From Brachybacterium endophyticum (GTDB taxonomy: Bacteria; Actinomycetota; Actinomycetes; Actinomycetales; Dermabacteraceae), in assembly GCF_003130585.1 (NCBI RefSeq), contig NZ_QFKX01000002.1:434001-498000 (forward strand): a DNA stretch of 64,000 nucleotides, in the 5' to 3' direction. The position numbers and the translations under genes were made by a program. Positions 5,929 to 26,070 of the stretch are shown here, one piece after another. How positions within the stretch are numbered: the stretch's first letter is position 1; the number at the start of each line of letters is the position of its first letter. The notes under the pieces are model-generated. The model saw only the letters and a list, made by a program, of their open reading frames with translations. It was not told the DNA's origin and searched no databases.

Positions 5929-6654
5929 GTGAACCCGGCCACCGATCATCCCAGCGACGCAGCATCCGCCACCGCGGCAGGCCCTCTCGAGGACTGGCCC
6001 CCGCGCTGGAGTCCGCGCGCGGTGGTGTTCGACTGCGACGGACTGCTCGTGGACACCGAGTCCGAGTGGCTCGCCACCCAGGCCCGCTACCTCGCCGTCC
6101 ACGACGCCACGATCGACGAGGCGGAGCGTCGCGCGCTGACGGGGCGGAGCATCGAGACCGTCGTGCGGGCGCTCTCCGCCCACACGGGACAGGACCCGCT
6201 GGTCGCCGCCGACGAGCTGATGGAGATCCACCGTGAGGCCCTGAGCGATGCGGTGGGCGTCCTTCCCGGCGCCGTGGAGACAGTCCGCGCGATCGCCTCC
6301 CGGGTCCCCGTCGCGATCGCCTCGAACTCCCCGCGCGACCTCCTGGACGACGCGATCGAGGGCCTCGGGATCGCCGACGTGGTCACCACCAGCGTGAGCG
6401 TGGACGACGTCGCCGAGGGCAAGCCCGCCCCGGACATCTACGCCGAGGCAGCCGCCCGCCTCGGCGCCGACCCGGCCGAGACCCTCGCCTTCGAGGACTC
6501 CGAGACCGGTGCACGGGCCGCCCGGGCCGCAGGCCTGACCCTGATCGCCGTCCCCTCGATCCCCGGCCAGGAACCGGTCGCCGACCGCACCCTGGCCAGC
6601 CTCGAGGACCCCGACCTGCACACCTGGATCCGCACCTGGGAGACGACCCGATGA
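5929..6654 (+). CDS. HAD-superfamily phosphatase/phosphomutase (first of tandem pair)
   Basis: A 241-aa haloacid-dehalogenase-fold hydrolase, subfamily IA (beta-phosphoglucomutase/phosphatase-like). Motif I VVFDCDGLLVDTE supplies the nucleophile Asp and the acid/base Asp. Motif II is in VAIASNSPRD, the motif III lysine in EGKPAPDIY and motif IV in [19 protein letters not shown] helical cap sits between motifs I and II. The start is GTG at 5929; the first ~25 residues are a low-complexity Ala-rich leader. It overlaps the next gene by ATGA, so the two are translationally coupled. Substrate is a small phosphorylated metabolite, not identifiable here. Confidence 0.88.
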   Translation: MNPATDHPSDAASATAAGPLEDWPPRWSPRAVVFDCDGLLVDTESEWLATQARYLAVHDATIDEAERRALTGRSIETVVRALSAHTGQDPLVAADELMEIHREALSDAVGVLPGAVETVRAIASRVPVAIASNSPRDLLDDAIEGLGIADVVTTSVSVDDVAEGKPAPDIYAEAAARLGADPAETLAFEDSETGARAARAAGLTLIAVPSIPGQEPVADRTLASLEDPDLHTWIRTWETTR

Positions 6655-7343
6655 CCACCTCCGCCACCGCTGCCGCCCCCGAGATCTTCGAGGAGGTCTT
6701 CGGTGCCTGGACCCCGCGCGCCGTCGTCTTCGACTGCGACGGCATGCTCCTGGACACCGAGGCCGCCTGGAGCCACCGCACCCAGCCCGCGGTCCTCGCC
6801 CGCTACGGCGTGGATCCGGCGGCCGCCGAGGACGCCCTTCCGCTGGGCCTGACCGTCCAGGACGCCTCGAAGGTCATCGCCGATCTCGCCGGCGCCCCCT
6901 ACGAGGAGGTCCTCGAGGTAACCCGCGAGCGCTTCCGGGCCGACGTCGCCGGCGACCTCGAGGTGCTGCCGGGGGTGCGCGAGGTCCTCGCCGCCACCAG
7001 CGCGCGGGTCCCGATCGCGTGCGCCTCGAACTCCTGGCACGAGATGCTCGAGGACAAGCTGCGCCGGGCCGGGCTGCGTGACTTCTTCGAGGCCCTCGAG
7101 TCCACCGACACCGTCGAGCGCGGCAAGCCCTTCCCGGACATGTACGAGGCGGGCGCCCGTGCGCTCGGCGCCGAGCCGGCCCAGGCCCTCGCCTTCGAGG
7201 ACTCGCACACGGGAGCGAGCGCGGCGCGCGCGGCCGGCCTGCGTCTGATCACGATCCCCCAGGCCGGTGAGGCGCCGCCCGCCGACCTGTCGCTGACCAC
7301 GCTGGCAGACCCCCGCCTGCTGAGCTGGATCGAGACCTGGTGA
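6651..7343 (+). CDS. HAD-superfamily phosphatase/phosphomutase (second of tandem pair)
   Basis: A 230-aa paralogue of the preceding gene with the same motif order: VVFDCDGMLLDTE (I), IACASNSWHE (II), ERGKPFPDMY (III lysine), LAFEDSHTGASAARAAGL (IV). The pair probably arose by duplication; the cap regions differ most, which suggests different substrates. The start overlaps the upstream stop (ATGA). The gene ends inside a 23-bp tandem repeat that copies its final codons and stop three times. Confidence 0.88.
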   Translation: MTTSATAAAPEIFEEVFGAWTPRAVVFDCDGMLLDTEAAWSHRTQPAVLARYGVDPAAAEDALPLGLTVQDASKVIADLAGAPYEEVLEVTRERFRADVAGDLEVLPGVREVLAATSARVPIACASNSWHEMLEDKLRRAGLRDFFEALESTDTVERGKPFPDMYEAGARALGAEPAQALAFEDSHTGASAARAAGLRLITIPQAGEAPPADLSLTTLADPRLLSWIETW

Positions 7344-7572: not shown

Positions 7573-9705
7573 ATGACTTCACCAGGCGACCCCACCGACG
7601 CGCAGACCGCGGGCTCCGGCGCCGACGCCGCAGCCCCCGCCGGCAGCGCCGCAGACACCGGCGACGCCGCCACGAACGGTGGTGCCGCAGCGACAGGCGG
7701 TTCCTCGGTCCTCGACGGCGGCTGGCTGAACACCGGACCCATCACCCCGGCCACCCCCGTCACCCCGCCCACGGGGGAGAACCCCGAGGTGGCGACGGGG
7801 CACAGCGCGGGAGGCGCCCGTGACGTCCGCGTCCACGGCAGCCCCCTGCGCGGGCGCGGCTGGCTGAACACCGGCGGCGTCGAGCTGGACCTCGAGGACC
7901 TGCGTGGCAAGGTCGTCGTCCTGGACTTCTGGGCCTTCTGCTGCGTGAACTGCCTGCACGTGCTCGACGAACTGCGTCCCATCGAGGAGAAGTGGTCCGA
8001 GGAGCTCGTCGTCATCGGTGTGCACTCGCCGAAGTTCGAGTTCGAGAAGGACCCCGACGCGCTCGCGGCGAACATCGAGCGCTACGAGGTCACCCACCCG
8101 GTGCTCGACGACCCCGAGCTGTCCACCTGGAGCGAGTACGGAGCCCGCGCCTGGCCCACCCTGATCGTCCTGGACACCCATGGTCGGATCGCCGCGAACC
8201 TCTCCGGCGAGGGCCACGCGGACACCATCGACGCGCTGGCCGCCCAGCTCACCGCCGAGGCCGAGGCCGACGGCTCCCTGCGCCGCGGCCCCGCTCCCGC
8301 GGTGGTCGCCGACCGCGTCCCCCAGACCCTGCGCTACCCCTCCAAGGTCACCACCGTGGACGACGGCCGCCTGGTCGTCTCCGACGCCGGTCAGCACCGC
8401 CTGGTCGTCTTCGAGCCCGACGGCTCCACGGTCGACGAGGTCGTCGGCGAGGGCCGTCGCGGTCATGCCGACGGCGAGGGCGAGCAGGCCCGCTTCGCCG
8501 AGCCCAACGGCGTCCTCACACTGCCGCCGGAGGTCGCCGACGAGGTCGGTTACGAGCTCCTGGTGGCCGACAGCGCCGGACACCGCCTGCGCTCGGTGGA
8601 GCTGGGCCGCAGCCGCCTGCTGCGCTCGCGCACCACCTCCGTGGTCGGCACCGTCGCGGGCAACGGCGAGCAGTGGATGCAGGGGCAGCCGCTGCCGACC
8701 GGCGAGGGCGATCCGCTCGACTTCGCGCTCTCCACGCCGTGGGACCTGACCTGGTCCCACGTGCTGGACCGGGCCGTGATCACCATGGCCGGCATCCACC
8801 AGATCTGGACCTTCGACCCGCGCACCGGCTCCCTCGCCGTCCTCGCCGGCACCACCCAGGAGGGCCTCGTCGACGGCCCGCTCGTCTCCTCCTGGTGGGC
8901 GCAGCCCTCCGGGATCGACGAGATGAACGACGGCACCCTCGCCGTCGCCGACTCCGAGTCCTCCGCGATCCGTCTGCTGGACCCCCAGCGCCTGACCGTG
9001 CGCACCGTCGTCGGCAAGGGACTGTTCGACTTCGGCCACGTCGACGGCAGCGCCGACCACGCCCGCCTGCAGCACCCGCTGGGCGTGACCGTCCTGCCCG
9101 ACGACCGCCTCGCCGTCTGCGACACCTACAACGGTGCGGTCCGGCTGATCGACCCCGCCGGGGCCGACGGCCAGGGCAGCGTCGTCACCGTCGCCCTCGA
9201 TCTCGCCGAGCCCTCGGACGCGGTGGTCGGGGCGCCGATCGACGGGATCGGCCAGCTGATCGTCGTGGAGTCCGGCGCCCACCGCCTGACCTGGGTCCCG
9301 GTGGCGAAGGCCGCGGAGCGCGTGCTCGACGAGGGCGCTCAGCGGACCTCCCGCCCGGTCACCGAGGTCGGCCCGGGCACGCTCACCGTGCGGGTGCTGT
9401 TCACCCCGCCGCCCGGGCACAAGCTCGACGACTCGCTCGGCCCCTCGACGCAGGTCTCGATCTCCACGACGCCCACCTCGATGCTCACCTCCGGCTCGGG
9501 CACCTCGACGGCGCTCGAGCGCACCGTCGTGCTGGACCCCGCCTACTCCGACGGGGTGCTGCACGTGAACGCGCGGGCGGCCTCGTGCGACGCCGACCCG
9601 AGCGTGGAGTTCCCGGCCTGCCACATGCACCAGCAGGACTGGGGCGTCCCGATCCGCGTCGTGGACGGCGCCCCCGACGTCCTGGACCTCTCGCTGCTGG
9701 GCTGA
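7573..9705 (+). CDS. Thioredoxin-like/NHL-repeat protein (NHLRC2-like)
   Basis: A 710-aa, probably cytosolic protein. Residues 1-95 are low-complexity Ala/Gly/Thr. A thioredoxin fold follows, with VVVLDFWAFCCVNCLHVLDE; the redox pair is C124-C127 (CVNC), the same CCxNC arrangement as animal NHLRC2. Residues ~250-580 hold several NHL beta-propeller blades (FAEPNGVLTLP, LQHPLGVTVLPDDRLAVCDTYNGAVRLID and similar). The C-terminal beta domain ends with a Cys pair in ASCD...PACHMH. No signal peptide or TM segment is evident. The role is probably thiol redox chemistry on an unknown partner. The motif GWLNTG occurs twice (about residues 55 and 96), which may mean the true start is later than 7573. 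Confidence 0.85.
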   Translation: MTSPGDPTDAQTAGSGADAAAPAGSAADTGDAATNGGAAATGGSSVLDGGWLNTGPITPATPVTPPTGENPEVATGHSAGGARDVRVHGSPLRGRGWLNTGGVELDLEDLRGKVVVLDFWAFCCVNCLHVLDELRPIEEKWSEELVVIGVHSPKFEFEKDPDALAANIERYEVTHPVLDDPELSTWSEYGARAWPTLIVLDTHGRIAANLSGEGHADTIDALAAQLTAEAEADGSLRRGPAPAVVADRVPQTLRYPSKVTTVDDGRLVVSDAGQHRLVVFEPDGSTVDEVVGEGRRGHADGEGEQARFAEPNGVLTLPPEVADEVGYELLVADSAGHRLRSVELGRSRLLRSRTTSVVGTVAGNGEQWMQGQPLPTGEGDPLDFALSTPWDLTWSHVLDRAVITMAGIHQIWTFDPRTGSLAVLAGTTQEGLVDGPLVSSWWAQPSGIDEMNDGTLAVADSESSAIRLLDPQRLTVRTVVGKGLFDFGHVDGSADHARLQHPLGVTVLPDDRLAVCDTYNGAVRLIDPAGADGQGSVVTVALDLAEPSDAVVGAPIDGIGQLIVVESGAHRLTWVPVAKAAERVLDEGAQRTSRPVTEVGPGTLTVRVLFTPPPGHKLDDSLGPSTQVSISTTPTSMLTSGSGTSTALERTVVLDPAYSDGVLHVNARAASCDADPSVEFPACHMHQQDWGVPIRVVDGAPDVLDLSLLG

Positions 9706-9848: not shown

Positions 9849-12572
9849 GTGGAGTTCATCACCGATTTCGCCCTCGGGGACGACATCGCCGTGCTGCTGA
9901 TCGTTCTCGGCGTGCTCGCCGTCGCCGCGATCGTGCTCGGGGCGCTGATACCGCCCCGCCTGGCCCACCACGGCGCGGCGATCGCGCGGCGCCGTGCCGA
10001 GAGCCGTGAGGACACGGACGAGGCAGAGGACGAGGACGGCGTCGCTGCGCGCGCAGTCGGCGCGGACGAGGATCCCGACGACGCCGACGAGGACATCGCT
10101 CCCGCCGACGAGGACGACCCGGACCTGCTGACCGAGGAGGACTCGGACACCGGGGACCCGGCGATCGACCGCCACCTGGGCAGCCGTCTGGGCTCCCTCG
10201 TCACCAGCGCCACGGTCGTCGCCACCTGGGTCGGCGTCCCCGCGGCGCTGCTGCTCCTGCTGGTGCCCGGCTCGACCGACGTGCGCGTCCTGCGCCTGGG
10301 CTTCTTCCTCGTCGGCCTGATGGCGGGACCCCTCGCCGCCTGGCGTGCGAGCGGCATGATGATGAGCGCCTTCGGCATCGCCCCGAGCGACCGCCCCCGG
10401 GCGATCTCCCGCTTCGGCGGCCTGTTCGTCGCCTCCTCGCTGGGCATCGCCGCCCTCCCGATCGCGCTGGCCCTGTACTTCATGCACCAGGCGGCGGCCT
10501 CCCCGCTGATCGCCTACGCCGCGGGTGCCGCGGTCTTCGCGCTCGCCCTGCACGCGATCGCCTCCCTCGCCCACACCACCGGGCACGCCGCCACCATGCT
10601 CGTCGGCTCCGACGAGAACGAGATCCACGCCGAGGACGAGACCAACCCCGGCGGCCCCCACCTGCGCCTCGCCCAGGTGCTGCGCCGCGGGCCCGCCCGC
10701 AGCGCGACGCTGGTCGCGCTCACCGCGGCCCTGACCGCGGCGAGCGTGCGCGTGTCGGTGCCCGTCTTCGGCGCCCAGGGGATCGGCGTGACCGTGCTGG
10801 GTCTCGCCGTCGCCATCGCCGTGGCGCTCGCCGTCGCCGTGTTCCCGCACCTCGGCCGCGCGGGCCGCGAGCGCACGGCCCTGCGGGCCGGCCAGCTCGT
10901 GCCCGCCCTGCTGAGCGTCGGCGGGATGGTCGCGGGCGTCGCCCTCTGGCTGCCCTCGGCCTACAAGGGCCTGCGCTTCGACTCCGTCGGGCTGGGGCAG
11001 TTCACCGACAAGGCCATCACCGGATCGGACAAGCCCGTCGCGCGCTCGGAGATCGTGGGGCAGATCGAGTCGGCGATCGGCGACATGTCGCAGTGGATCT
11101 CCTCGACCGACGAGTCGCAGTACGCCACGACGTTCCTGAACACGCTCACGCTGTACAAGACCCACCCGCAGGTGCTCGCGGCCCTCGCGATCGCGAGCGG
11201 CGCGATCATCACGCTCGCGGCGCAGCTGATCGTCTCGCGGGTGCTGAACCCGCACGAGGCCACCGCCCTGCGCGCCGCCCGCAGCAGCCGCACGGGCGGC
11301 GCCCTCGGGGCCGTCACCGTGCTGGGCAGCGCCGCCCTCGCGACCTCCGGCATCCTCGCCCTCGGCGGGCTCGTGCTCGCGGTGGTGACCGTGCTCGCCG
11401 CCGGCGTCACCAGCCTCGCGCTCTCGCTCGTCGCCTTCGCGGGCGTGGGCGGCCTCGTGGTGATCGCCGCGAGCTCCGCGCTGCACACCTCCGGTGCCTT
11501 CGCGGACCGTCCGGGGACCGCCGAGCCGTGGCGCGCCGCCAGCCGCACCGGCGGCGCCGAGACCGCCGTCGGCATCCAGGTCGCCAGCGCGCTGGCCGCG
11601 CTGCCGTTCCTCTCCACGATCGTCGGCGCGGTCGCCGGCGCGGACCGCGCCAAGACCGTGTGGGAGGACCGTGCCCTGCACGCCCTCACCCCCGACTCGA
11701 CGGCCGTGCTGGGCGGCATCGCGCTCGCCCTGATCACCCTCGTGCTGATCGCCTCCACCCTCCTGCACGGCCTGCGCCGCCTGGGCGTCGCCTCGGTGGT
11801 CGAGACCCGCACCGCGATCCTCGATCAGCGCGAGAGCGTCGACTTCGTGGACCTCGGGACGACCTCGCGCCGGGCCGCCCTCGCGCCGGTCGCGATCTCC
11901 GCCCTGATGCCCGTCGTCGCCGGCTTCGCCTTCGGCCCGTCGGCCCTGCCGGCGTACGTCGGCGGCCTCGTGCTGTTCGCGCTCGGTGCCGCCGTCTGGT
12001 CCACGATCTCGGCGGGCCTGGGCACCGCCTCGGTGCGGGTCATCGAGTCCGGCCGCTACGGCGGGCCCGGCTCCTGGGGTCACTCGGGCGCGCTGGGCAC
12101 CACGGTGCTGGTGGGCGCGCTGCGCAACGCGCTCGGCAGCTTCGTCTCGATGGCCGCGCTCGTGGGCACCCTGGTCGGCGTGCTCTCGGTGGCCTCGATG
12201 GTCAACGCGATGATCGACGGGACCAACGAGTTCCTGCGCTGGGGCGTCGCCCTGATCGCCCTGCTCGCCATCGGAGCCAGCTGGGTGTACGCGATCACCG
12301 CCGCCCAGACGGACCTCGAGGACGAGCTGGGGGAGACCTCGAAGCCCCTGTTCGCCCGGGCCGACGAGGACGAGGACGACGACGGGACCGACCCCCTGCT
12401 CATGGACTGGGACGACGAGGACGACGAGTCCGTCGCCGCCTCGCCGCGATCCCGTCGGCAGAAGGGCTCGGACCGGACGACGGCCGGCAGCGGATCGGCG
12501 CAGTCCCGCGGCTCGAAGAGCGGTGCGGGCTCCGGCAAGGGCGGGCGCGGGAAAAAGAAGAAGAAGCGCTGA
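9849..12572 (+). CDS. Degenerate membrane pyrophosphatase homologue (probable pseudoenzyme)
   Basis: A 907-aa polytopic membrane protein with about 15-16 hydrophobic segments. Several stretches line up with H+/Na+-translocating pyrophosphatase (HppA) in order. AEDETNPGG (~261-269) sits where HppA has EDDPRNPA. NPHEATALRAARSSRTGGA (~467-485) matches the PV.EIA.AS.TGPATN segment. SGAFADRPGT...AASRTGGAETAVG (~548-575) matches the D..GNTTKAVTKG loop. FVDLGTTSRRAAL...PVVAGFAFGP (~666-697) and RVIESGRYGGPGSWGHSGALG (~730-750, interrupted here) match the C-terminal third. The Asp/Lys ligands for Mg-PPi are missing at nearly every site. Extras are an acidic cytosolic insert (~50-105) and a charged tail ending GKKKKKR. 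GTG start with AGGAGA upstream. It cannot be a normal PPase by these residues; its actual job is unknown. Confidence 0.65.
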   Translation: MEFITDFALGDDIAVLLIVLGVLAVAAIVLGALIPPRLAHHGAAIARRRAESREDTDEAEDEDGVAARAVGADEDPDDADEDIAPADEDDPDLLTEEDSDTGDPAIDRHLGSRLGSLVTSATVVATWVGVPAALLLLLVPGSTDVRVLRLGFFLVGLMAGPLAAWRASGMMMSAFGIAPSDRPRAISRFGGLFVASSLGIAALPIALALYFMHQAAASPLIAYAAGAAVFALALHAIASLAHTTGHAATMLVGSDENEIHAEDETNPGGPHLRLAQVLRRGPARSATLVALTAALTAASVRVSVPVFGAQGIGVTVLGLAVAIAVALAVAVFPHLGRAGRERTALRAGQLVPALLSVGGMVAGVALWLPSAYKGLRFDSVGLGQFTDKAITGSDKPVARSEIVGQIESAIGDMSQWISSTDESQYATTFLNTLTLYKTHPQVLAALAIASGAIITLAAQLIVSRVLNPHEATALRAARSSRTGGALGAVTVLGSAALATSGILALGGLVLAVVTVLAAGVTSLALSLVAFAGVGGLVVIAASSALHTSGAFADRPGTAEPWRAASRTGGAETAVGIQVASALAALPFLSTIVGAVAGADRAKTVWEDRALHALTPDSTAVLGGIALALITLVLIASTLLHGLRRLGVASVVETRTAILDQRESVDFVDLGTTSRRAALAPVAISALMPVVAGFAFGPSALPAYVGGLVLFALGAAVWSTISAGLGTASVRVIESGRYGGPGSWGHSGALGTTVLVGALRNALGSFVSMAALVGTLVGVLSVASMVNAMIDGTNEFLRWGVALIALLAIGASWVYAITAAQTDLEDELGETSKPLFARADEDEDDDGTDPLLMDWDDEDDESVAASPRSRRQKGSDRTTAGSGSAQSRGSKSGAGSGKGGRGKKKKKR

Positions 12573-12594: not shown

Positions 12595-13179
12595 TCAGAC
12601 CTTCGCGCCGACCGCGCGCTGGATGAAGCGCACGAGTTCCGTCTCGTCGGTGCCCTTGGGCAGGTCCCGGCCGATCAGCATCGCGTTGATGATGCGCAGC
12701 GTCGCCTCGATGTCGAGATCGGCGGCGAAATCTCCCGTGGCGATGCCCTCCTCGAGGATCGAGCTGAGCACGCGCTCGATCAGGACCACGTGCTCGCGCA
12801 TGCGGCGGGCGATCTCGGGATCCAGGTTCACGCGGCCGCGGGTGCTGGAGAGGTGGAAGGACGAGCTCAGCCCCAGCTGCGTGCGCACGTACAGCTCGAT
12901 CGCCTCGATCGGCGTGGAGGCGCCGCGGATGCCCTCCTGCAGCTGATCGAGGTAGTCGCTGGTCTCGTGCATCGTGTACTCGACCAGGAGCGTGTCCTTG
13001 TCGGGGAAGTGGTTGTACATCGCCGTGCGCCCGACCTGGGCCTCCTCGGCGATCCGGGAGAAGGTGATGTCCTCGAAGGGATCCGTCGCCATGAGCTCGC
13101 CGAGAGCGGCGAAGATCTTCTCGCGCGTCCGCTCGCGATGCTCCTCCAGGGAGCCTCCGATGATCTTGGGCATGGACAT
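12595..13179 (-). CDS. TetR-family transcriptional regulator
   Basis: A 194-aa DNA-binding repressor. The N-terminal HTH (residues ~18-65) reads REKIFAALGELMATDPFEDITF, interrupted, then RIAEEAQVGRTAMYNHFPDKDTLL; the recognition helix is in VGRTAMYNHF. The C-terminal ligand domain (70-194) is not diagnostic. The start is either 13179 or the ATG two codons later; neither has a strong Shine-Dalgarno. It converges on the pyrophosphatase-like gene, 22 bp apart, and is divergent from the small conserved protein at 13252. Ligand unknown. Confidence 0.88.
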   Translation of the reverse strand: MSMPKIIGGSLEEHRERTREKIFAALGELMATDPFEDITFSRIAEEAQVGRTAMYNHFPDKDTLLVEYTMHETSDYLDQLQEGIRGASTPIEAIELYVRTQLGLSSSFHLSSTRGRVNLDPEIARRMREHVVLIERVLSSILEEGIATGDFAADLDIEATLRIINAMLIGRDLPKGTDETELVRFIQRAVGAKV

Positions 13180-16976: not shown

Positions 16977-17131
16977 TACCGGGCTGAGCAGGCCTGACGC
17001 GCCGCTGTCGGGCGGGGAGGCCCCGTCGATCGTGCTGCGGGGACCGCCTCGCCGAAAGCGTGACGCAGTTCACACCTGTGCTGTCCACTCCGACGGCTTC
17101 GTTTGTCGGACCCCCCGAGGAGCATGGCTCC

Positions 17132-19273
17132 ATGGATCACGATGGACACCGCATCGGCCCCGGCGCCGAGCCGACGACGGGCAGCAGCACGGCCCGTCGC
17201 GCGGGTGCGCCGTCGGTCGGCGCGGTGTCGATGCGTGTGGTCCCCGGTGGGCAGATCCTCGCCACCCCACCGGTCGCGGGGATCGAGGAAGCGCCCACGG
17301 CGATCGACCTCGTCGAGACCGCGCGGGTGATCGGCGAGACCGCGACCGTGCAGGATGCGACCTTCACCGGCGCGGAGAACGGACTCGACGCGCAGGAGCT
17401 CTCGCGGGTGCTCTCCGGGATCGACCGGCTCACCTCCGCCCTCGCCGCCCTCGAGATGCGCACCATGACGGCGCTCGACGAGCGGATTCGCGCGGAGGAT
17501 GCCGAGGCCCGGGTCCCCCTCAAGGAGCAGGGCCGGCGCACGGCGGGGGAGATCCGGATGGCCTCCCGCATCTCACCTGCCACCGCATCACGACGCCTGC
17601 GCTCGGGGGAGCGACTGGTGCGCGAGATGCCTCGCGTCTTCGGTGCTCTGGCCGACGGACGTCTTGCGGTCGATGCCGCCTACGCGATCGGTCGCGGCAG
17701 CGGCCCGGTCTCCCCGGAGCTGCGCCCGGCGGTCGACGAGGTCATCGAGACGCATCTCCCGGATCTCGAGGGCATCAGCACCGGCCGATGGAGCCAGGAG
17801 ATCAGCGCGATCGCGCAGTGCCTCGAACCCGAGGGAGCGCCGGACCGCCACCGGGAGGCCGTCCGCGAGCGCAGTGTGAGCGTGACGCCGGGCGCTCACG
17901 GCATGGGCACCGTGAGCGCGCATCTCTCCGGGCTCGATGCCGCCGCGATCCGTCGCAAGCTGTCCCTGCAGGCCGAGTCCCTGCGCGCCCAGGGGGACCG
18001 GCGCACGCACGCCCAGATCATGGCCGACCTGTTCGCCGACACCCTGCTGGGACGCGACGAGACGATGGACCCCGTGCATCTCGACATCGGCGTCGTGGTC
18101 TCCGAGCGCAGTCTGCTCGCCCCGGAGCACGGCGAGCCCGCCCACCTCGAGGGCTACGGGGTCATCGAGGCGAGTCAGATCCGGGATCGGGTGCAGAGCC
18201 CTCGACCTGAGCGCCGGCCGACGGGTTCCGAAGCTCCTCTGGGAGCGCGCGGGCGCGCCGGGAACGGCGAGGTCGACACCGACGCCGTCGATGAGACGGC
18301 CGAGCAGAGAGAACTGCGGCTCGCCGCTCAGGTCGCTCGCGAACTCGCTGGTCACAGTGCTGGCGCAGCCCACTCCGAACAGGAACGTCCGCGCCCGCGC
18401 CTGGTCGCTCCTCCACAGGGCGCCGATCCCACGAGCGACCCGCAGCTGCCACCGCCGACGTCCACGGCCCCGCCGACCCCTCCGGCCCCGGCGGATCCGC
18501 CGGCCTCGCCGGATCTGCCGGATCCCGTCGCCACAGAGACCATCCATCACCTGCGACGCCTCTACACGCATCCCACGGCGGGCGAGCTCGTGGCCGTCGA
18601 ATCGCGCTCGCGCGCCTTCCCGCCGGGGCTCGCGCGGCTCATCCGACTGCGCGACCAGCGATGCGCGGCGCCGTACTGTGATGCGCCCATCCGGCATCTC
18701 GACCACATCCGTCCCGTCTCCGAGGGCGGTGCGACCAGCGCCGAGAACGGACAGGGTCTCTGTGCGCACTGCAACCTCACCAAGGAGGTGCTCGGTCGGG
18801 TCGAGCACACGCCCACGGCCGACGGCCGCCACGCGGTGACCTGGACGACCCGGCTCGGCCGGACCGCGACGGTCTCGCCCCGGTCGCTCACGGGGCTTCC
18901 CCTGACCGGTTCACGCACGCAGCGACAGGACCAGGAAAGGGAAGAGCAGGAGGCAGTGCTCGCCTCGGCGGCAGCCAGGTCGGAGCGCGATGACGGAGTC
19001 CCCTCGCTGCCCGACGAGCTCCAGTGCACCGTGCCGACCGCCGACCCCGCCACGATCCTGCGGCGGCTCGAGGAGCTGCAGAGGGAGTCGTCAGCAGAGC
19101 CGGGTGGAGCGGAGCGCGAGGAGCGAGTCGGGTACGGCCTCGAGCCGGAGCCGGAGCCGACGATCGCGGAGAGCGAGGCGATGTACCGTGCCGCCGTCGC
19201 CTCGTGGCCTCCGGCGGGAGCGCTCGAGGACGAGGACGAGATCCTCGCCCACCTCGCGCAGATGGTGGCCTGA
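17132..19273 (+). CDS. DUF222 / HNH-endonuclease domain protein
   Basis: 713 aa from the ATG at 17132. The N-terminal two-fifths is the helical DUF222 region (ELSRVLSGIDRLTSALAALE; SRISPATASRRLRSGERLV; GRLAVDAAYAIGRGSG). A Pro-rich linker follows (~430-470), then an HNH nuclease motif at ~510-555: AAPYCDAPIRHLDHIRPVSEG, interrupted, and GLCAHCNLTKE, with the zinc-binding Cys pairs and catalytic H. This architecture occurs in many copies in actinobacterial genomes; its role is unproven and mobility is suspected. The start is set by GAGGAG at 17117; an upstream in-frame GTG at 17060 would add 24 residues. Confidence 0.85.
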   Translation: MDHDGHRIGPGAEPTTGSSTARRAGAPSVGAVSMRVVPGGQILATPPVAGIEEAPTAIDLVETARVIGETATVQDATFTGAENGLDAQELSRVLSGIDRLTSALAALEMRTMTALDERIRAEDAEARVPLKEQGRRTAGEIRMASRISPATASRRLRSGERLVREMPRVFGALADGRLAVDAAYAIGRGSGPVSPELRPAVDEVIETHLPDLEGISTGRWSQEISAIAQCLEPEGAPDRHREAVRERSVSVTPGAHGMGTVSAHLSGLDAAAIRRKLSLQAESLRAQGDRRTHAQIMADLFADTLLGRDETMDPVHLDIGVVVSERSLLAPEHGEPAHLEGYGVIEASQIRDRVQSPRPERRPTGSEAPLGARGRAGNGEVDTDAVDETAEQRELRLAAQVARELAGHSAGAAHSEQERPRPRLVAPPQGADPTSDPQLPPPTSTAPPTPPAPADPPASPDLPDPVATETIHHLRRLYTHPTAGELVAVESRSRAFPPGLARLIRLRDQRCAAPYCDAPIRHLDHIRPVSEGGATSAENGQGLCAHCNLTKEVLGRVEHTPTADGRHAVTWTTRLGRTATVSPRSLTGLPLTGSRTQRQDQEREEQEAVLASAAARSERDDGVPSLPDELQCTVPTADPATILRRLEELQRESSAEPGGAEREERVGYGLEPEPEPTIAESEAMYRAAVASWPPAGALEDEDEILAHLAQMVA

Positions 19274-20593: not shown

Positions 20594-21478
20594 TCACTCG
20601 CCTCCGAGCTCGGAGAGGATCCGTTCGCGCATCCTGCGGTTGATCGCGTCGGCGTCCTCCTCCCATCCGAAGACGCACACCGAGACGGGGCCGTCGTACT
20701 CGCGCTCGCGCAGCGCGGCGAAGGCGTCGTCCCAGTCGATCTCGCCGTTGCCGATCTCGTTGTGCTGGTGCACGCGGGCGTCGATCCCGGGCGGGTTCAC
20801 GATGTAGCGGTTGCCGACGTTCGCGGTGTGGTCGAAGACGTCGGCCATGTGCAGGTGCTTCAGCCGGTCGCCCGCGTAGTCGAGCATCGAACGGAGGTCC
20901 GCGCCGGGCCTGCCGGGGGATCCTCCGGCGAGGTGGAAGGAGTGGGGGAAGCAGAACTCGTAGTTGAACCAGTCGCGGTCGACGCCGCGCACGATCTGCA
21001 CGGCCCGCTCGTTGGTCTCGGCGAAGTCGTAGGGGTGCGCCTCGACGGTGCACTCGATCCCGTAGCGTTCGAAGTCGGGGATCAGCTCCTCGATGGAGCG
21101 GTAGAACTGCGCCTCGCTGCGGCGCGACCGGTTCGGGTCTCCCGAGAGCTCGGCCGCGATCATCGGCACCTCGAGGGCGTCGGCGATCTCGAGCAGACGC
21201 CGCCAGTTGCGCACCTGCGCCTGACGCTCCTCCTCGTCGGGGCTGGACCAGTCGAAGACCGGGTTGAACGTCCAGATCCTCGTCCCGGTCTCGCGCATCG
21301 CCTGCTTCACCTCGGCGATCTGGTGGCGGTCGACCTTGGGGTAGTGGTGCCACTCGTGGAAGTCGGCGCGCGGGGAGAGCTCGATGTAGCGGAAGCCGAG
21401 CTCGGCGGACTTGTGCACCTCCTGCGCGACCGTCAGCTGCGGGTGGTACATGCTCGGGTCCAGCAGGACCTTCACCAT
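20594..21478 (-). CDS. Sugar-phosphate isomerase/epimerase (AP-endonuclease-2 TIM barrel)
   Basis: 294 aa, xylose-isomerase-like TIM barrel. Metal-binding residues are visible in the C-terminal half: the E in CTVEAHPYDF, the H in LKHLHMADVFDH, and the segment ARVHQHNEIGNGEIDW with H and E ligands. Members in inositol clusters are IolH/IolI-like inosose isomerases or epimerases. It follows iolE at 36 bp and precedes the dehydrogenase at 2 bp, so it belongs to the leftward operon. I do not assign IolH versus IolI. Confidence 0.85.
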   Translation of the reverse strand: MVKVLLDPSMYHPQLTVAQEVHKSAELGFRYIELSPRADFHEWHHYPKVDRHQIAEVKQAMRETGTRIWTFNPVFDWSSPDEEERQAQVRNWRRLLEIADALEVPMIAAELSGDPNRSRRSEAQFYRSIEELIPDFERYGIECTVEAHPYDFAETNERAVQIVRGVDRDWFNYEFCFPHSFHLAGGSPGRPGADLRSMLDYAGDRLKHLHMADVFDHTANVGNRYIVNPPGIDARVHQHNEIGNGEIDWDDAFAALREREYDGPVSVCVFGWEEDADAINRRMRERILSELGGE

Positions 21479-21514
21479 CGGATGCTCCTTCGCTCGATCA
21501 GGGGAGGGGTTCGC

Positions 21515-22474
21515 TCACTTCACGCCCAGGCCGCACTCGGCCAGGAACTCGCGGGTCTTCACGGCATTGGGCAGCGGCAGCGAGGGATCGCACGGGTACA
21601 GGTCCTGCTCGCAGATCACGTAGAGCTCCCGATCCAGCGTCGCCAGCTTCGCGACCAGGTCCTTCATGTCGGGCAGCCCGGCCGGCGGTCGCACCGAGGC
21701 GCCCTTCGCGACGGCCTGTCCGAAGGGCCAGTCCTTCTCGTGGGCCTCGCGGGTGATGTCGGCGTCGAAGGCCTTGATGTGCACGTACCCGATGCGCTCG
21801 GGGTACTCCTCGATCATCGTCAGCGGGTCCCCGCCGCCGTAGACCACGTGCCCGGTGTCCAGGCAGAAGGAGACGAGCTCCGGGTCGGTCGCCTCGAACA
21901 CACGGGCGATCTCCTCGGGGGTCTCGATATGGCTGTCCCCGTGGGGGTGCAGCACCATCGTCAGCCCGTAGTCCTCCTTCAGGAGCCGGCCCAGTCGGTT
22001 GGCGTTCTCGACGTACAGCCGCCAGGCCTCACCCGTCAGCTGACGGTCATCGGTGAACTCCCACGTCTTGTCATCGCGGTACAGGGGCGGCAGATGCACC
22101 ATGTACTCGGCGCCGACGGCGGCATGGGTCTCGGCGATCGCGCGGAAGGTCCGCTCGGTCTCGGCCCAGGCCTCCTCCTTGTGCAGGATGCCCCAGCCGG
22201 TCCCCGCCACCACCCGGAACCCGTGCTCGTCCATCACATGACGCAGATCCGTGGCGTCCTTCGGGAAGTAGCCCCAGGGGCCGGTCTCCGTGACCGAGAA
22301 CCCGGCCTGCGCCATCTCGGCCAGCGCCGTGCGCCAGGGGATCTGCTTCTCGTCCTCGGGGAACCACACGCCCCACTGATCGGGGCACACCCCGATGGTG
22401 AGGTTGTCGAACGGGGCCTCGGGATTGCGCGAGAGGTCGGTGCGGGCAGGGGCGCCCACGGCAGGGTCGGTCAC
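21515..22474 (-). CDS. iolE: Inosose dehydratase
   Basis: 319 aa TIM barrel; dehydrates 2-keto-myo-inositol to the trihydroxycyclohexane-dione substrate of IolD. The IolE signature is clear: IGVCPDQWGVWFP, WRTALAEMAQAGF, then ETGPWGYFP. Candidate metal ligands lie in MVLHPHGDSH, FCLDTGHVVYGGGDP and GYVHIKAFD. Third gene of the leftward operon, 40 bp after mmsA. The start ATG follows a weak GGAGATG-like site. Confidence 0.9.
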   Translation of the reverse strand: MTDPAVGAPARTDLSRNPEAPFDNLTIGVCPDQWGVWFPEDEKQIPWRTALAEMAQAGFSVTETGPWGYFPKDATDLRHVMDEHGFRVVAGTGWGILHKEEAWAETERTFRAIAETHAAVGAEYMVHLPPLYRDDKTWEFTDDRQLTGEAWRLYVENANRLGRLLKEDYGLTMVLHPHGDSHIETPEEIARVFEATDPELVSFCLDTGHVVYGGGDPLTMIEEYPERIGYVHIKAFDADITREAHEKDWPFGQAVAKGASVRPPAGLPDMKDLVAKLATLDRELYVICEQDLYPCDPSLPLPNAVKTREFLAECGLGVK

Positions 22475-22514
22475 GGTGCATCTCCTTCGATGGGTGACGG
22501 ATGGATGTCGGCGC

Positions 22515-24008
22515 TCAGTCGTGCGTCGGGAAGCTCATCGAGGCCTCGAGGTGCTCCTCCTGGTGGGGCCAGCGCGAGGTCACGGCCTTCTGCTTCGTGT
22601 AGAACTCGAGGCCCTCGGGCCCGTGCGCATGGTGCTCGCCGAACAGCGAGTCCTTCCAGCCGCCGAAGGAGTAGTAGCCCACGGGGGTCGGGATCGGGAC
22701 GTTGATGCCGACCATCCCCACCTCGATCTCCTCCTGGTAGCGACGGGCGTAGTGGCCCGACCCGGTGAAGATCGCGGTGCCGTTGCCGAAGCGCGAGGAG
22801 TTCACGAGCTCGACGGCCTCGTCGAAGTTGTTCACGTGCATGACCACCAGCAGCGGTCCGAAGACCTCCTCGGTGTACGTCGGGTGGTCGGCGGGCAGGT
22901 CGGTGACCACCGTCGGGCCCACGAAGTTGCCGTTCTCGTAGCCGTCGACGACCAGTCCGCGGCCGTCCACCACGAGCCGTCCGCCGGCCTGCTCGGCCTC
23001 GTCGGCCATGCGGATCACGCGCTCGCGGGCGTCCTTCGTGATCACCGGGGGCATGTCGGTGGCCGGATCGGAGCCGGGGCCGACGGTCAGTTTCTCGGCC
23101 TCGGCGGCGATCGCCTCGAGGAACTGCTCGTGGATGTCGCCCACGGTGACCGCGACCGGGACCGCCATGCAGCGCTCGCCCGCGGAGCCGAACGCTCCCG
23201 AGGCGACCTGCGAGGCGGCGAACTCGACGTTCGCGTCCGGCATCACGACGGCGTGGTTGTTCGCCCCGCCCAGGGCCTGCACGCGCTTGCCGGCGGCCGA
23301 GGCGGTCGCGTGCACGTGCTGGGCGATCGGGGTCGAGCCGACGAAGGAGACCGCGGCGATGTCCTCGTGGGTGCACAGCGCGTCGACCGTGTCCTTGCCG
23401 CCGTGGACGACCTGGAACACCCCGTCGGGCAGACCGGCCTCCTGGTAGAGGCGGGCGACGATGTTCGAGGCGGAGGGGTCGCGCTCCGAGGGCTTGAGGA
23501 TGAAGGCGTTGCCGGTCGCGATCGCGATCGGGTGCATCCAGAAGGGGACCATCGCGGGGAAGTTGAAGGGCGTGATGCCCGCGACGACACCCAGCGGCTG
23601 GCGGAACGTGTAGCCGTCCACGCCCGTGGAGACGTTCTCGGAGAAGCCGCCCTTGAGGTCCTGCGTGATCGAGGTGGCGAACTCGAGGGTCTCCTGGCCG
23701 CGGGCGATCTCGCCCTTGGCGTCGGCCACGGTCTTGCCGTGCTCGCGGGAGATCACCTCGGCGATCTCGCCGGTCGCCTCGATCAGCAGCTGACGCATCC
23801 GGTACATGATCTGGGTGCGCTTGGACAGCGAGACCTGCGCCCACTCGCGCTGCGCGGTGCGGGCGACCTGCACGGCCTGGTCCACCGTCGAGGCGTCGCC
23901 GAGGTGCAGGGTCGCGATCTCCTCGTTCGTCGAGGGATCCAGGATGGGCTGGGTGGAGCCGGTGCTCGCGGTCTCGCGGCCGTCGATCCAGTGCTTGACG
24001 TCTGTCAT
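22515..24008 (-). CDS. iolA: CoA-acylating methylmalonate/malonate-semialdehyde dehydrogenase
   Basis: 497 aa ALDH-superfamily enzyme of the MmsA/IolA type; converts malonate semialdehyde (from inositol) to acetyl-CoA, or methylmalonate semialdehyde to propionyl-CoA. Catalytic C280 sits in SAGERCMAVPVAV, which is the MmsA version of the ALDH motif. TPFNFPAMVPFWMHPIAI and the C-terminal PVGYYSFGGWKDSLFG also match this subgroup. It lies between iolD and iolE and is translated with them. The role in valine degradation cannot be excluded, but the position argues for inositol. Confidence 0.95.
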   Translation of the reverse strand: MTDVKHWIDGRETASTGSTQPILDPSTNEEIATLHLGDASTVDQAVQVARTAQREWAQVSLSKRTQIMYRMRQLLIEATGEIAEVISREHGKTVADAKGEIARGQETLEFATSITQDLKGGFSENVSTGVDGYTFRQPLGVVAGITPFNFPAMVPFWMHPIAIATGNAFILKPSERDPSASNIVARLYQEAGLPDGVFQVVHGGKDTVDALCTHEDIAAVSFVGSTPIAQHVHATASAAGKRVQALGGANNHAVVMPDANVEFAASQVASGAFGSAGERCMAVPVAVTVGDIHEQFLEAIAAEAEKLTVGPGSDPATDMPPVITKDARERVIRMADEAEQAGGRLVVDGRGLVVDGYENGNFVGPTVVTDLPADHPTYTEEVFGPLLVVMHVNNFDEAVELVNSSRFGNGTAIFTGSGHYARRYQEEIEVGMVGINVPIPTPVGYYSFGGWKDSLFGEHHAHGPEGLEFYTKQKAVTSRWPHQEEHLEASMSFPTHD

Positions 24009-24123
24009 GTCGTCCTCCGTGGTGGTGAGGTGCGGATGGTGCGGTGCACGTGGGTGGTGCAGGGGAGTGATGCAGGTGGAGCCGTGAGGGCGGGGCCGTG
24101 CGGGTGCGCCGCCTCCGGTGCGC

Positions 24124-26070
24124 TCACAGGTAGTGGCGCTGGGGCGCCTTCTCGCTCTCGTAGGCGGCCGACGCCTCCCGCGTCGACTCCAGGCGGGAGG
24201 TCTGGGAGACGGGCACGTCCCACCAGCCGATGCCCGGCGGGTTCGGGCCGTACAGGTCGGTGTTCACGACGATCGCGCTCGCGTGCTCGGAGGCCTCGGC
24301 ACGGCGGAAGGCGTCGCGGAAGTCCGCGGTCGCGCTCACCTCGCTGACCTCGATGCCGTAGGAGCGGATGTTCGCGGCGATGTCCATCGGCAGCTTCTCG
24401 CCGTCGAGCAGTCCCGACTCCTTGCTGCGCATCCGGTAGCGGGTGCCGAAGCGCTGGGAGCCGTGGGACTCCGAGAGCGAGCCGATCGAGGACCAGCCGT
24501 GGTTCTGCAGGATCACCAGGATCACCTTGAGGTCCTCGGCGACGATGGTCGCGATCTCCTGCGGGGCCATCTGGAAGGTGCCGTCGCCGATGATCGCGAC
24601 GACCTCGCTCTCCGGTGCCGCCATCTTCGCGCCCAGCGAGGCCGGCAGCTCGTACCCCATGCAGGAGTAGCCGTACTCGAGGTGGTACTGCAGCGGGGTG
24701 CGCGCACGCCACAGCGCCTGCAGGTCCCCGGGCATCGACCCGGCGGCGTTGATGACGATGTCGCTCTCGCCCATCATCTCGTTGAGCGCCCCGAAGATCT
24801 CCGTCTGCGCGGGCAGCTCCTGGTCGTGCGGGGCGAAGCAGGGGGCGATGCGCTCCTCCCACTGCTCCCGCAGCTCGCGGGCACGATCCTGGTGCTCCTG
24901 CGGCGCGCGGTATCCGTCCGCGGAGCCGGTCGTCCCCGCCAGCGCAGCGGTCAGCGCCTCGAGCCCGGTGCGGGCATCGGCCACGACCATCTCGGCCGAG
25001 TGCTTGGCCGCGTCGAACGCCTTGACGTTGAGGTTCACGAAGCGCACGTCGGGATCGCGGAACGCCGTGTGCGAGGCGGTGGTGAAGTCCGTGTAGCGGG
25101 TGCCCACGCCGATCACGACGTCGGCCTCCGCGGCGAGGGTGTTCGCGGCGTCGTTGCCGGTCGCGCCGACGCCGCCCACGCTCGCGGGGTGGTCGGCGCT
25201 GAGCGCGCCCTTGCCGGCCTGGGTGTCGGCGACCGGGATCCCTGTCGCCTCGGCGAAGGCCGCGAGCGCCTCGCTCGCCTCCGAATAGACGGCGCCGCCG
25301 CCGGCCACCAGCAGCGGCCGACGCGCGGATCGGATGACCTCGAGGGCGCGATCCAGCGCGGCGGGCTCGGGCACGGAACGCGCCACGTGCCAGGTGCGCT
25401 CGCGGAAGAACTCGAGCGGCCAGTCGTAGGCCTCGGCCTGGACGTCCTGCGGCAGGGCGAGGGTGACCGCGCCGGTCTCGGCCGGATCGGTGAGGACCCG
25501 CATCGCGGCGAGGGCGCTCGGGATCAGCTGCTCGGGACGCCAGATCCGATCGAAGTAGCGGGAGACGGGACGGAAGGCGTCGTTCACGCTCACGTCCATC
25601 GCGCGCTCGTCCTCGAGCTGCTGGAGCACCGGGTCGACCGCCCGGTTCGCGAACACGTCGCTGGGCAGGATCAGCACGGGGATGCGATCGATCGTCGCGA
25701 GCGCGGCGCCGGTCACCATGTTCGTGGAGCCCGGTCCGATGGAGGCGGTGCAGGCGAGCGTCTGCAGACGATTCCGGGTGCGCGCGTAGGCGACCGCAGC
25801 GTGCACCATGTTCTGCTCGTTGCGGGCCTGGTAGTAGGGCATCTCGGCCTCGCCCTCGGCGGGGTCGACCGCGTTCTGCAGGAGGGCCTGGCCCACGCCC
25901 GCGACGTTGCCGTGGCCGAAGATGCCGAAGGTGCCGGGGATCAGCCGCTGCCGCTCGCCGTCGCGTTCGGTGTGCTGCGCGGCGAGGAACCGGACCAGCG
26001 CCTGGCCGACGGTGAGCCGGACCGTGGGTGCGGCGGGGGACGGCGTCGTCGTGCCGCTGTGCTCGCTCAT
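24124..26070 (-). CDS. iolD: 3D-(3,5/4)-trihydroxycyclohexane-1,2-dione acylhydrolase
   Basis: 648 aa ThDP enzyme that opens the inositol-derived ring to 5-deoxyglucuronate. Catalytic glutamate E85 is in QARNEQNMVHAA; the ThDP/Mg motif runs from IGDGTFQMAPQEI to LQNHGWSSIGSLS. The central domain is acetolactate-synthase-like. The frame stays open far upstream, but the start is fixed by GGAGG six to ten bases before the ATG at 26070. First gene of the leftward operon; its leader holds a strong hairpin and a GntR-type operator. Confidence 0.95.
   Translation of the reverse strand: MSEHSGTTTPSPAAPTVRLTVGQALVRFLAAQHTERDGERQRLIPGTFGIFGHGNVAGVGQALLQNAVDPAEGEAEMPYYQARNEQNMVHAAVAYARTRNRLQTLACTASIGPGSTNMVTGAALATIDRIPVLILPSDVFANRAVDPVLQQLEDERAMDVSVNDAFRPVSRYFDRIWRPEQLIPSALAAMRVLTDPAETGAVTLALPQDVQAEAYDWPLEFFRERTWHVARSVPEPAALDRALEVIRSARRPLLVAGGGAVYSEASEALAAFAEATGIPVADTQAGKGALSADHPASVGGVGATGNDAANTLAAEADVVIGVGTRYTDFTTASHTAFRDPDVRFVNLNVKAFDAAKHSAEMVVADARTGLEALTAALAGTTGSADGYRAPQEHQDRARELREQWEERIAPCFAPHDQELPAQTEIFGALNEMMGESDIVINAAGSMPGDLQALWRARTPLQYHLEYGYSCMGYELPASLGAKMAAPESEVVAIIGDGTFQMAPQEIATIVAEDLKVILVILQNHGWSSIGSLSESHGSQRFGTRYRMRSKESGLLDGEKLPMDIAANIRSYGIEVSEVSATADFRDAFRRAEASEHASAIVVNTDLYGPNPPGIGWWDVPVSQTSRLESTREASAAYESEKAPQRHYL

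Follow-up and report, generated by a model that had tools for sequence, protein, structure and literature searches.

In Brachybacterium endophyticum, the protein encoded at positions 9849-12572 of the window (the whole stretch of DNA analysed, 64,000 nucleotides of contig NZ_QFKX01000002.1, positions 434,001 to 498,000) has features that support its assignment to a pseudoenzyme branch of the membrane pyrophosphatases (mPPases). Computation showed that its structure model has the mPPase fold, that catalytic and ion-gate residues have been lost, that the gene is under purifying selection, that the gene order is conserved and that the protein is independent of true mPPases. Since a dead mPPase is kept under selection beside a relative of NHLRC2, reuse for another job is suggested; tentatively, with a likelihood somewhat short of even, the pseudo-mPPase is retained as the membrane component of a module made up of two HAD-family hydrolases and a thioredoxin-like/NHL protein. 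As an earlier reading of the sequence (the original prediction) had supposed, no description of a catalytically dead mPPase branch was found in the literature, as judged by titles and the first parts of abstracts, and the passage located by term search in a 2024 review (PMC11210485) is not about such branches.

Relationship to membrane pyrophosphatases

The open reading frame, which begins with GTG and was confirmed on the window sequence, encodes 907 residues. Searched alone, this protein gave no match in Pfam and matched no PDB chain with phmmer; NCBIfam NF001952 (sodium-translocating pyrophosphatase) was reached with an expectation (E) value of 2.6e-7 and 29 bits, the cut-off being 912. Within its own genome the protein scored 23.3 bits against PF03030, below the cut-off of 29.7, and no second PF03030 match was found there. 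A profile of 22 family members, including the window's own protein, matched the mPPase of Thermotoga maritima (TmPPase, 4av3) at E 4.8e-13 and that of Vigna radiata (VrPPase) at E 6.7e-6, and 11 of the 22 members, the window's protein not among them, matched PF03030 individually (best 1e-12). Judged from sequence, the homology to mPPases is real but remote, being evident for the family profile and below the Pfam and NCBIfam cut-offs for the single protein. The structure model strongly matched the mPPase fold of solved structures over about 650 residues, and no other PDB fold compared with it stood out. The mPPase relationship that had been predicted was thereby borne out, both in the structural comparison and in the PF03030 search, weak for the single sequence and significant for the family; of the expected 16-helix fold, the fold itself held, while our own reading of the model gave 17 membrane-length helices. 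Like the mPPases, the pseudo-mPPases keep R149, R188, E256, R644, R654 and R797 (21 of 21).

Loss of the hydrolytic centre and ion gate

As set out in passages of PMC6882861, the mPPase hydrolytic centre consists of 12 acidic residues, three lysines and one asparagine, and the pair D6.43/D16.39 activates water (also in part of PMC5150537). The catalytic asparagine is printed in PMC6882861 as N12.53; the asparagine in the NTTK motif, position 12.43 by count, was used instead. All centre residues were placed on conserved residues of 31 true mPPases through the spacing of the helix numbers published in those passages. The residue numbers of VrPPase served as a guide to this placement. Every position was retained in at least 30 of the 31 true mPPases. 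The window protein keeps one of the 16, D11.57 (D553); E262 stands in place of D5.77 and R759 in place of K16.38, and the others are gone, including the water-activating pair. Across 28 family rows (21 database proteins, from Brachybacterium where the species is given, six from three other genera, and a divergent pseudo-mPPase of the same genus, G035) between zero and four of the 16 residues are kept. The coupling and gate charges R5.50, D6.50, K12.50 and K16.50 are H, T, V and L in the window protein; none of the 28 members has K12.50 or the gate lysine K16.50, and R5.50 and D6.50 occur in 21 and 18, respectively. Neither the hydrolytic centre nor the set of coupling and gate charges of a functional mPPase is therefore intact in the window protein. 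Unlike mPPases, the pseudo-mPPase lacks the cage for pyrophosphate (PPi) and Mg, the nucleophile-activating aspartate pair, K12.50 and the ion-gate K16.50. The gene and its two degenerate blocks are:

9849..12572 (+), pseudo-mPPase, 907 residues, mPPase fold without the PPi/Mg hydrolytic centre
10575..10703 (+), degenerate catalytic block of helices 5-6, residues 243-285; K5.58, D5.61, D5.65, E5.76, D6.35, D6.39 and D6.43 replaced, E262 a conservative substitution for D5.77
12015..12131 (+), degenerate block of helices 15-16, residues 723-761, GRYGGPGSWGHSGAL; GDxxGDPxKD lost

The original prediction had held that the catalytic aspartates are not intact, and they are lost in the window protein as in the 27 other members examined; its statement that the whole Asp/Lys cage is gone stands overall, apart from the retained D553. 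The change it read from DVGADLVGK to GHAATMLVG and the degeneration of the GDxxGDPxKD loop agree with the alignments, as does that from EDDPRNPA to AEDETNPGG, in which acidic residues and the asparagine nevertheless remain (E262, D263, N266). The region it called GNTTKA-like was misjudged, the NTTK block being lost.

Judging from these residues, hydrolytic activity has probably been lost. As in other pseudoenzymes, such as the bacterial pseudokinases treated in part of PMC12599244, the fold is retained, the catalytic residues are lost and the gene is kept; unlike pseudokinases, the pseudo-mPPase derives from a polytopic ion pump. Such natural variants, with the pump scaffold and without its chemistry, could reveal the residues required by the fold itself. 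An enzyme with a new active site, hydrolysing for example another phosphorylated compound at the old funnel, could be read from the invariant E256 and R654, the nearly invariant H745 and D553 in 19 of 21 sequences. E256, R654 and H745 are, however, conserved in true mPPases too and may therefore be structural, at most a few of the 12 acidic site residues are left, and D553 is serine in four of seven divergent members; this explanation appears improbable.

Distribution, selection and independence from true mPPases

The first search returned 76 proteins besides the query, with 39-80% identity across the aligned part. Their database names include 'pyrophosphatase', 'K(+)-stimulated pyrophosphate-energized sodium pump' and 'hypothetical protein', and the sodium pump and pyrophosphatase names would mislead metabolic reconstructions. 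The pseudo-mPPase was found in 43 of 47 genomes of the same family-level group: in 37 of the 38 same-genus genomes, where a few copies are broken or fragmentary, and in all six of genera g23, g24 and g25, so that orthologues occur throughout the genus and in three further genera. In G025 a true mPPase alone was seen; its NHL gene is cut at a contig end, and absence of the pseudo-mPPase is thus not established. G066, from another genus of the same bacterial family, has a true mPPase only, and G067 and G068 have neither gene. Among 149 genomes sampled across the phylum nothing exceeded 136 bits except the own genome at 1089, and the branch is therefore regarded as confined, as sampled, to this bacterial family. 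In a large protein search with 7,996 scored candidates, scores among the best 120 of 189 listed fell from 950 to 139 bits, and the five rows directly below this gap have the catalytic motifs. A spread beyond the family was rejected by the phylum sample and the score gap.

The ratio of non-synonymous to synonymous substitution rates (dN/dS) was 0.09-0.22 in the 22 closest pairs listed, several of which are the same genome twice; for the neighbouring NHL gene it was 0.12-0.20, where comparable. The pseudo-mPPase is under purifying selection. A decaying pseudogene might be suspected from a divergence faster than that of the neighbours and from G022 and G023, where the gene lies in several open reading frames; the dN/dS values, close to those of the NHL gene, contradict it, the frames are open in most genomes and new invariant motifs have appeared, leaving this explanation scarcely credible. 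At L100 (G022) the gene is split into two open reading frames in a near-complete genome with a true mPPase, which could be a sequencing error or a recent loss.

Genes with a full PF03030 score (more than 500 bits) occur in 18 of the 38 same-genus genomes. The 37 that have a pseudo-mPPase divide into 17 with both genes and 20, including the own genome, with the pseudo gene only; 16 of these 20 are at least 99% complete and four only 81-88%. In other genera, the six genomes that carry the pseudo-mPPase yielded no full-scoring gene. The pseudo-mPPase is independent of a true mPPase. A regulatory or decoy subunit pairing with a true mPPase would suit the homodimeric mPPases with their known subunit asymmetry (as stated in part of PMC6882861) and the 17 genomes with both genes; against it stand the 20 same-genus genomes, most of them nearly complete, and the six of other genera in which only the pseudo gene was seen. 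Presence and absence reject pairing as a general role, and although it could hold in those 17 genomes, the explanation is very improbable. The own genome also encodes two soluble family I pyrophosphatases (PF00719), at G000:C10:931748-932206 and G000:C2:29742-30200.

New conserved features and topology

With cytosolic, helix and outside classes assigned from mPPase homology, the membrane topology is predicted as follows:

9849..9878 (+), N-terminus, conserved, reading MEFITDFALG here and MDLITQFPLG in many of the relatives, predicted extracytoplasmic
9960..10175 (+), acidic loop between helices 1-2, residues 38-109, predicted cytosolic, model confidence partly low
10950..11165 (+), enlarged conserved loop between helices 8-9, residues 368-439, predicted extracytoplasmic
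11619..11702 (+), conserved WEDRALHALTP loop between helices 12-13, residues 591-618, predicted extracytoplasmic
12297..12569 (+), C-terminal tail, residues 817-907, predicted cytosolic, DLED and PLFA motifs conserved

New and strongly conserved are the N-terminus, the 8-9 loop (about 72 residues), WEDRALH, GRYGGPGSWGHSGAL and the DLED/PLFA motifs of the tail, for which model confidence is low from about residue 821 onward. In predicted topology the enlarged extracytoplasmic loop and the conserved cytosolic tail set the pseudo-mPPase apart from mPPases. The acidic insert and lysine tail noticed earlier are both present; the insert (38-109) is long chiefly in the nearest relatives, and the lysine tail is variable.

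Mean pairwise identity among the 31 true mPPases was 0.849 for cytosolic, 0.770 for helix and 0.503 for outside positions; among 21 pseudo-mPPases it was 0.530, 0.520 and 0.579. The pseudo-mPPases no longer show the cytosolic maximum, and their outside positions score slightly above the other two classes. The idea that conservation had moved strongly to the extracytoplasmic side was rejected, the shift being mild. These values bear on a repurposed transporter or channel, whose old funnel would conduct or carry an anion or small solute, the neighbouring HAD and redox proteins perhaps regulating it. The helical body is retained almost whole, and the gate and cage charges have been removed, several in favour of arginine: of 21 sequences, 19 have R and 2 have H at D6.43, and 20 have R at K16.38, so these positions are not neutral blanks, and arginine also occupies the canonical asparagine position (273 here) in 17 and D6.39 (276 here) in 12. 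The helices are, however, the least conserved class of the pseudo family, in true mPPases lying far above the outside, the arginines are only partly kept in the seven divergent members (D6.43 in five, K16.38 in two), and a ligand for the funnel is supposition; a transporter or channel is thus rather unlikely.

Gene neighbourhood and the SOQ1/NHLRC2 orthologue

The neighbouring genes are:

5929..6654 (+), HAD-family hydrolase 1
6651..7343 (+), HAD-family hydrolase 2, overlapping the first by 4 bases
7573..9705 (+), thioredoxin-like and NHL beta-propeller protein with a CCVNC motif, SOQ1/NHLRC2 orthologue, in an operon-like unit with the pseudo-mPPase
12595..13179 (-), convergent TetR-type regulator, a conserved neighbour within the genus

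In a search of solved structures, the 710-residue product of 7573-9705 matched SOQ1 of plants at E 1.1e-78 and human NHLRC2 at E 1.8e-59, and with its thioredoxin-like and NHL propeller parts and CCVNC it belongs with the SOQ1/NHLRC2 proteins, whose orthologues were selected by CC(I/V)NC according to a passage of PMC6107167. Other passages of that paper describe SOQ1 as combining HAD, thioredoxin-like and propeller domains with a transmembrane helix, report a HAD gene preceding the NHLRC2 gene in one actinobacterium, and call human NHLRC2 essential, disease-linked and of unknown function.

The order HAD, HAD, thioredoxin/NHL, pseudo-mPPase was found in 25 of 25 pseudo loci compared (24 genomes). 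The gap between the NHL and pseudo-mPPase genes is 10-160 bases in 29 same-genus loci, a count that leaves out G027 (misread start), G022 and G023 (broken genes) and second copies of genomes. In four of six loci of other genera the two genes overlap by 4 bases, an arrangement commonly read as a sign of translational coupling. In the same-genus loci the TetR gene follows on the opposite strand. No HAD relative lay within 1.5 kb in 16 outgroup loci with an NHL gene. This gene order, outside the coordinates considered earlier, narrows the functions then proposed (channel, sensor or scaffold) and provides a testable clue to what bacterial NHLRC2/SOQ1 orthologues do.

Proposed role

The gene set resembles the parts of SOQ1 as separate genes, with the pseudo-mPPase as membrane part, and a place in the module is proposed on this ground: HAD, membrane protein and thioredoxin-like/NHL protein are encoded side by side. 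Unlike in SOQ1 as described, a many-helix mPPase fold takes the place of the single membrane helix, the HADs number two, and the NHL protein, which shows no signal-like N-terminus by eye, is probably located in the cytosol. The helical body would present an extracytoplasmic surface formed by the N-terminus, the 8-9 loop and the WEDR loop, and the cytosolic side, with the old funnel and the DLED/PLFA tail, would dock the SOQ1/NHLRC2-like protein and the HAD partners. Physical docking with the NHL and HAD proteins may be expected from the gene order, and by analogy the pseudo-mPPase would act as an anchor or receptor. A more specific version, which we consider unlikely, is that an arginine-lined receptacle has replaced the acidic PPi cage and that the former pump serves as a ligand-sensing membrane receptor controlling a SOQ1/NHLRC2-type HAD-thioredoxin-propeller complex from the cytosol; if true, a pyrophosphate-energised pump would have given rise to a pseudoenzyme receptor, and bacterial NHLRC2 orthologues would have a genetic partner.

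Several observations weigh against membership in the module. What links the pseudo-mPPase to the NHL and HAD proteins here is gene order. Both genomes of genus g27 (L139 in G068, L140 in G067) have HAD-HAD-NHL-TetR without the pseudo-mPPase, the TetR orientation being opposite to that in Brachybacterium-type loci; the module can therefore do without it, either through loss or because the gene was gained late. NHL orthologues without a pseudo-mPPase neighbour are common in the order, and part of PMC6107167 mentions seven bacterial genomes without conserved neighbours of the NHLRC2 orthologue. The thioredoxin/NHL part of SOQ1 is lumenal according to the same paper, so the topology differs from that of the bacterial protein. 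Conservation of the outside exceeds that of the cytosolic side only mildly (0.579 against 0.530), a difference that 56 of 737 circular label shifts also reach.

Origin of the branch

In the module reading, a copy of an actinobacterial mPPase would have been placed behind the HAD-HAD-thioredoxin/NHL genes in an ancestor inside this bacterial family, would then have lost PPi hydrolysis and coupled pumping, and would have been retained as the membrane part. In trees the pseudo branch split from true mPPases with full support, more than three changes per site long, and stood among or beside actinobacterial mPPases; in a wider tree it attached at an unresolved fork of these and not to those of other phyla. 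The length of the branch and this fork make the attachment point unsure, and the length weakens any statement of origin. By eye, the 8-9 loop of the true mPPase of G066 is the most similar to that of the pseudo-mPPase.

A locus shared with true mPPases was rejected: the surroundings of 13 true mPPase genes (about 8 kb on each side, shorter where a contig ended) yielded no relative of the HAD or NHL genes, and neighbour matches were limited to a relative of a pyridoxal phosphate enzyme at 34% (L099) and to two weak ones (L088, L089). Ten genomes from other families have both genes; compared by eye, they place the NHL and mPPase genes on separate contigs or more than 100 kb apart. With no common locus of the two, the mPPase copy was either moved or duplicated. 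At L088, L091 and L102, true mPPases of the genus adjoin three shared neighbour genes, one encoding a several-helix membrane protein, transporter-like by eye and not in outgroup loci.

Elsewhere in the window, genes at 20594-25896 (minus strand) resemble a myo-inositol catabolism cluster by eye, and 17060-19273 encodes a DUF222-HNH endonuclease-type protein by its Pfam matches.
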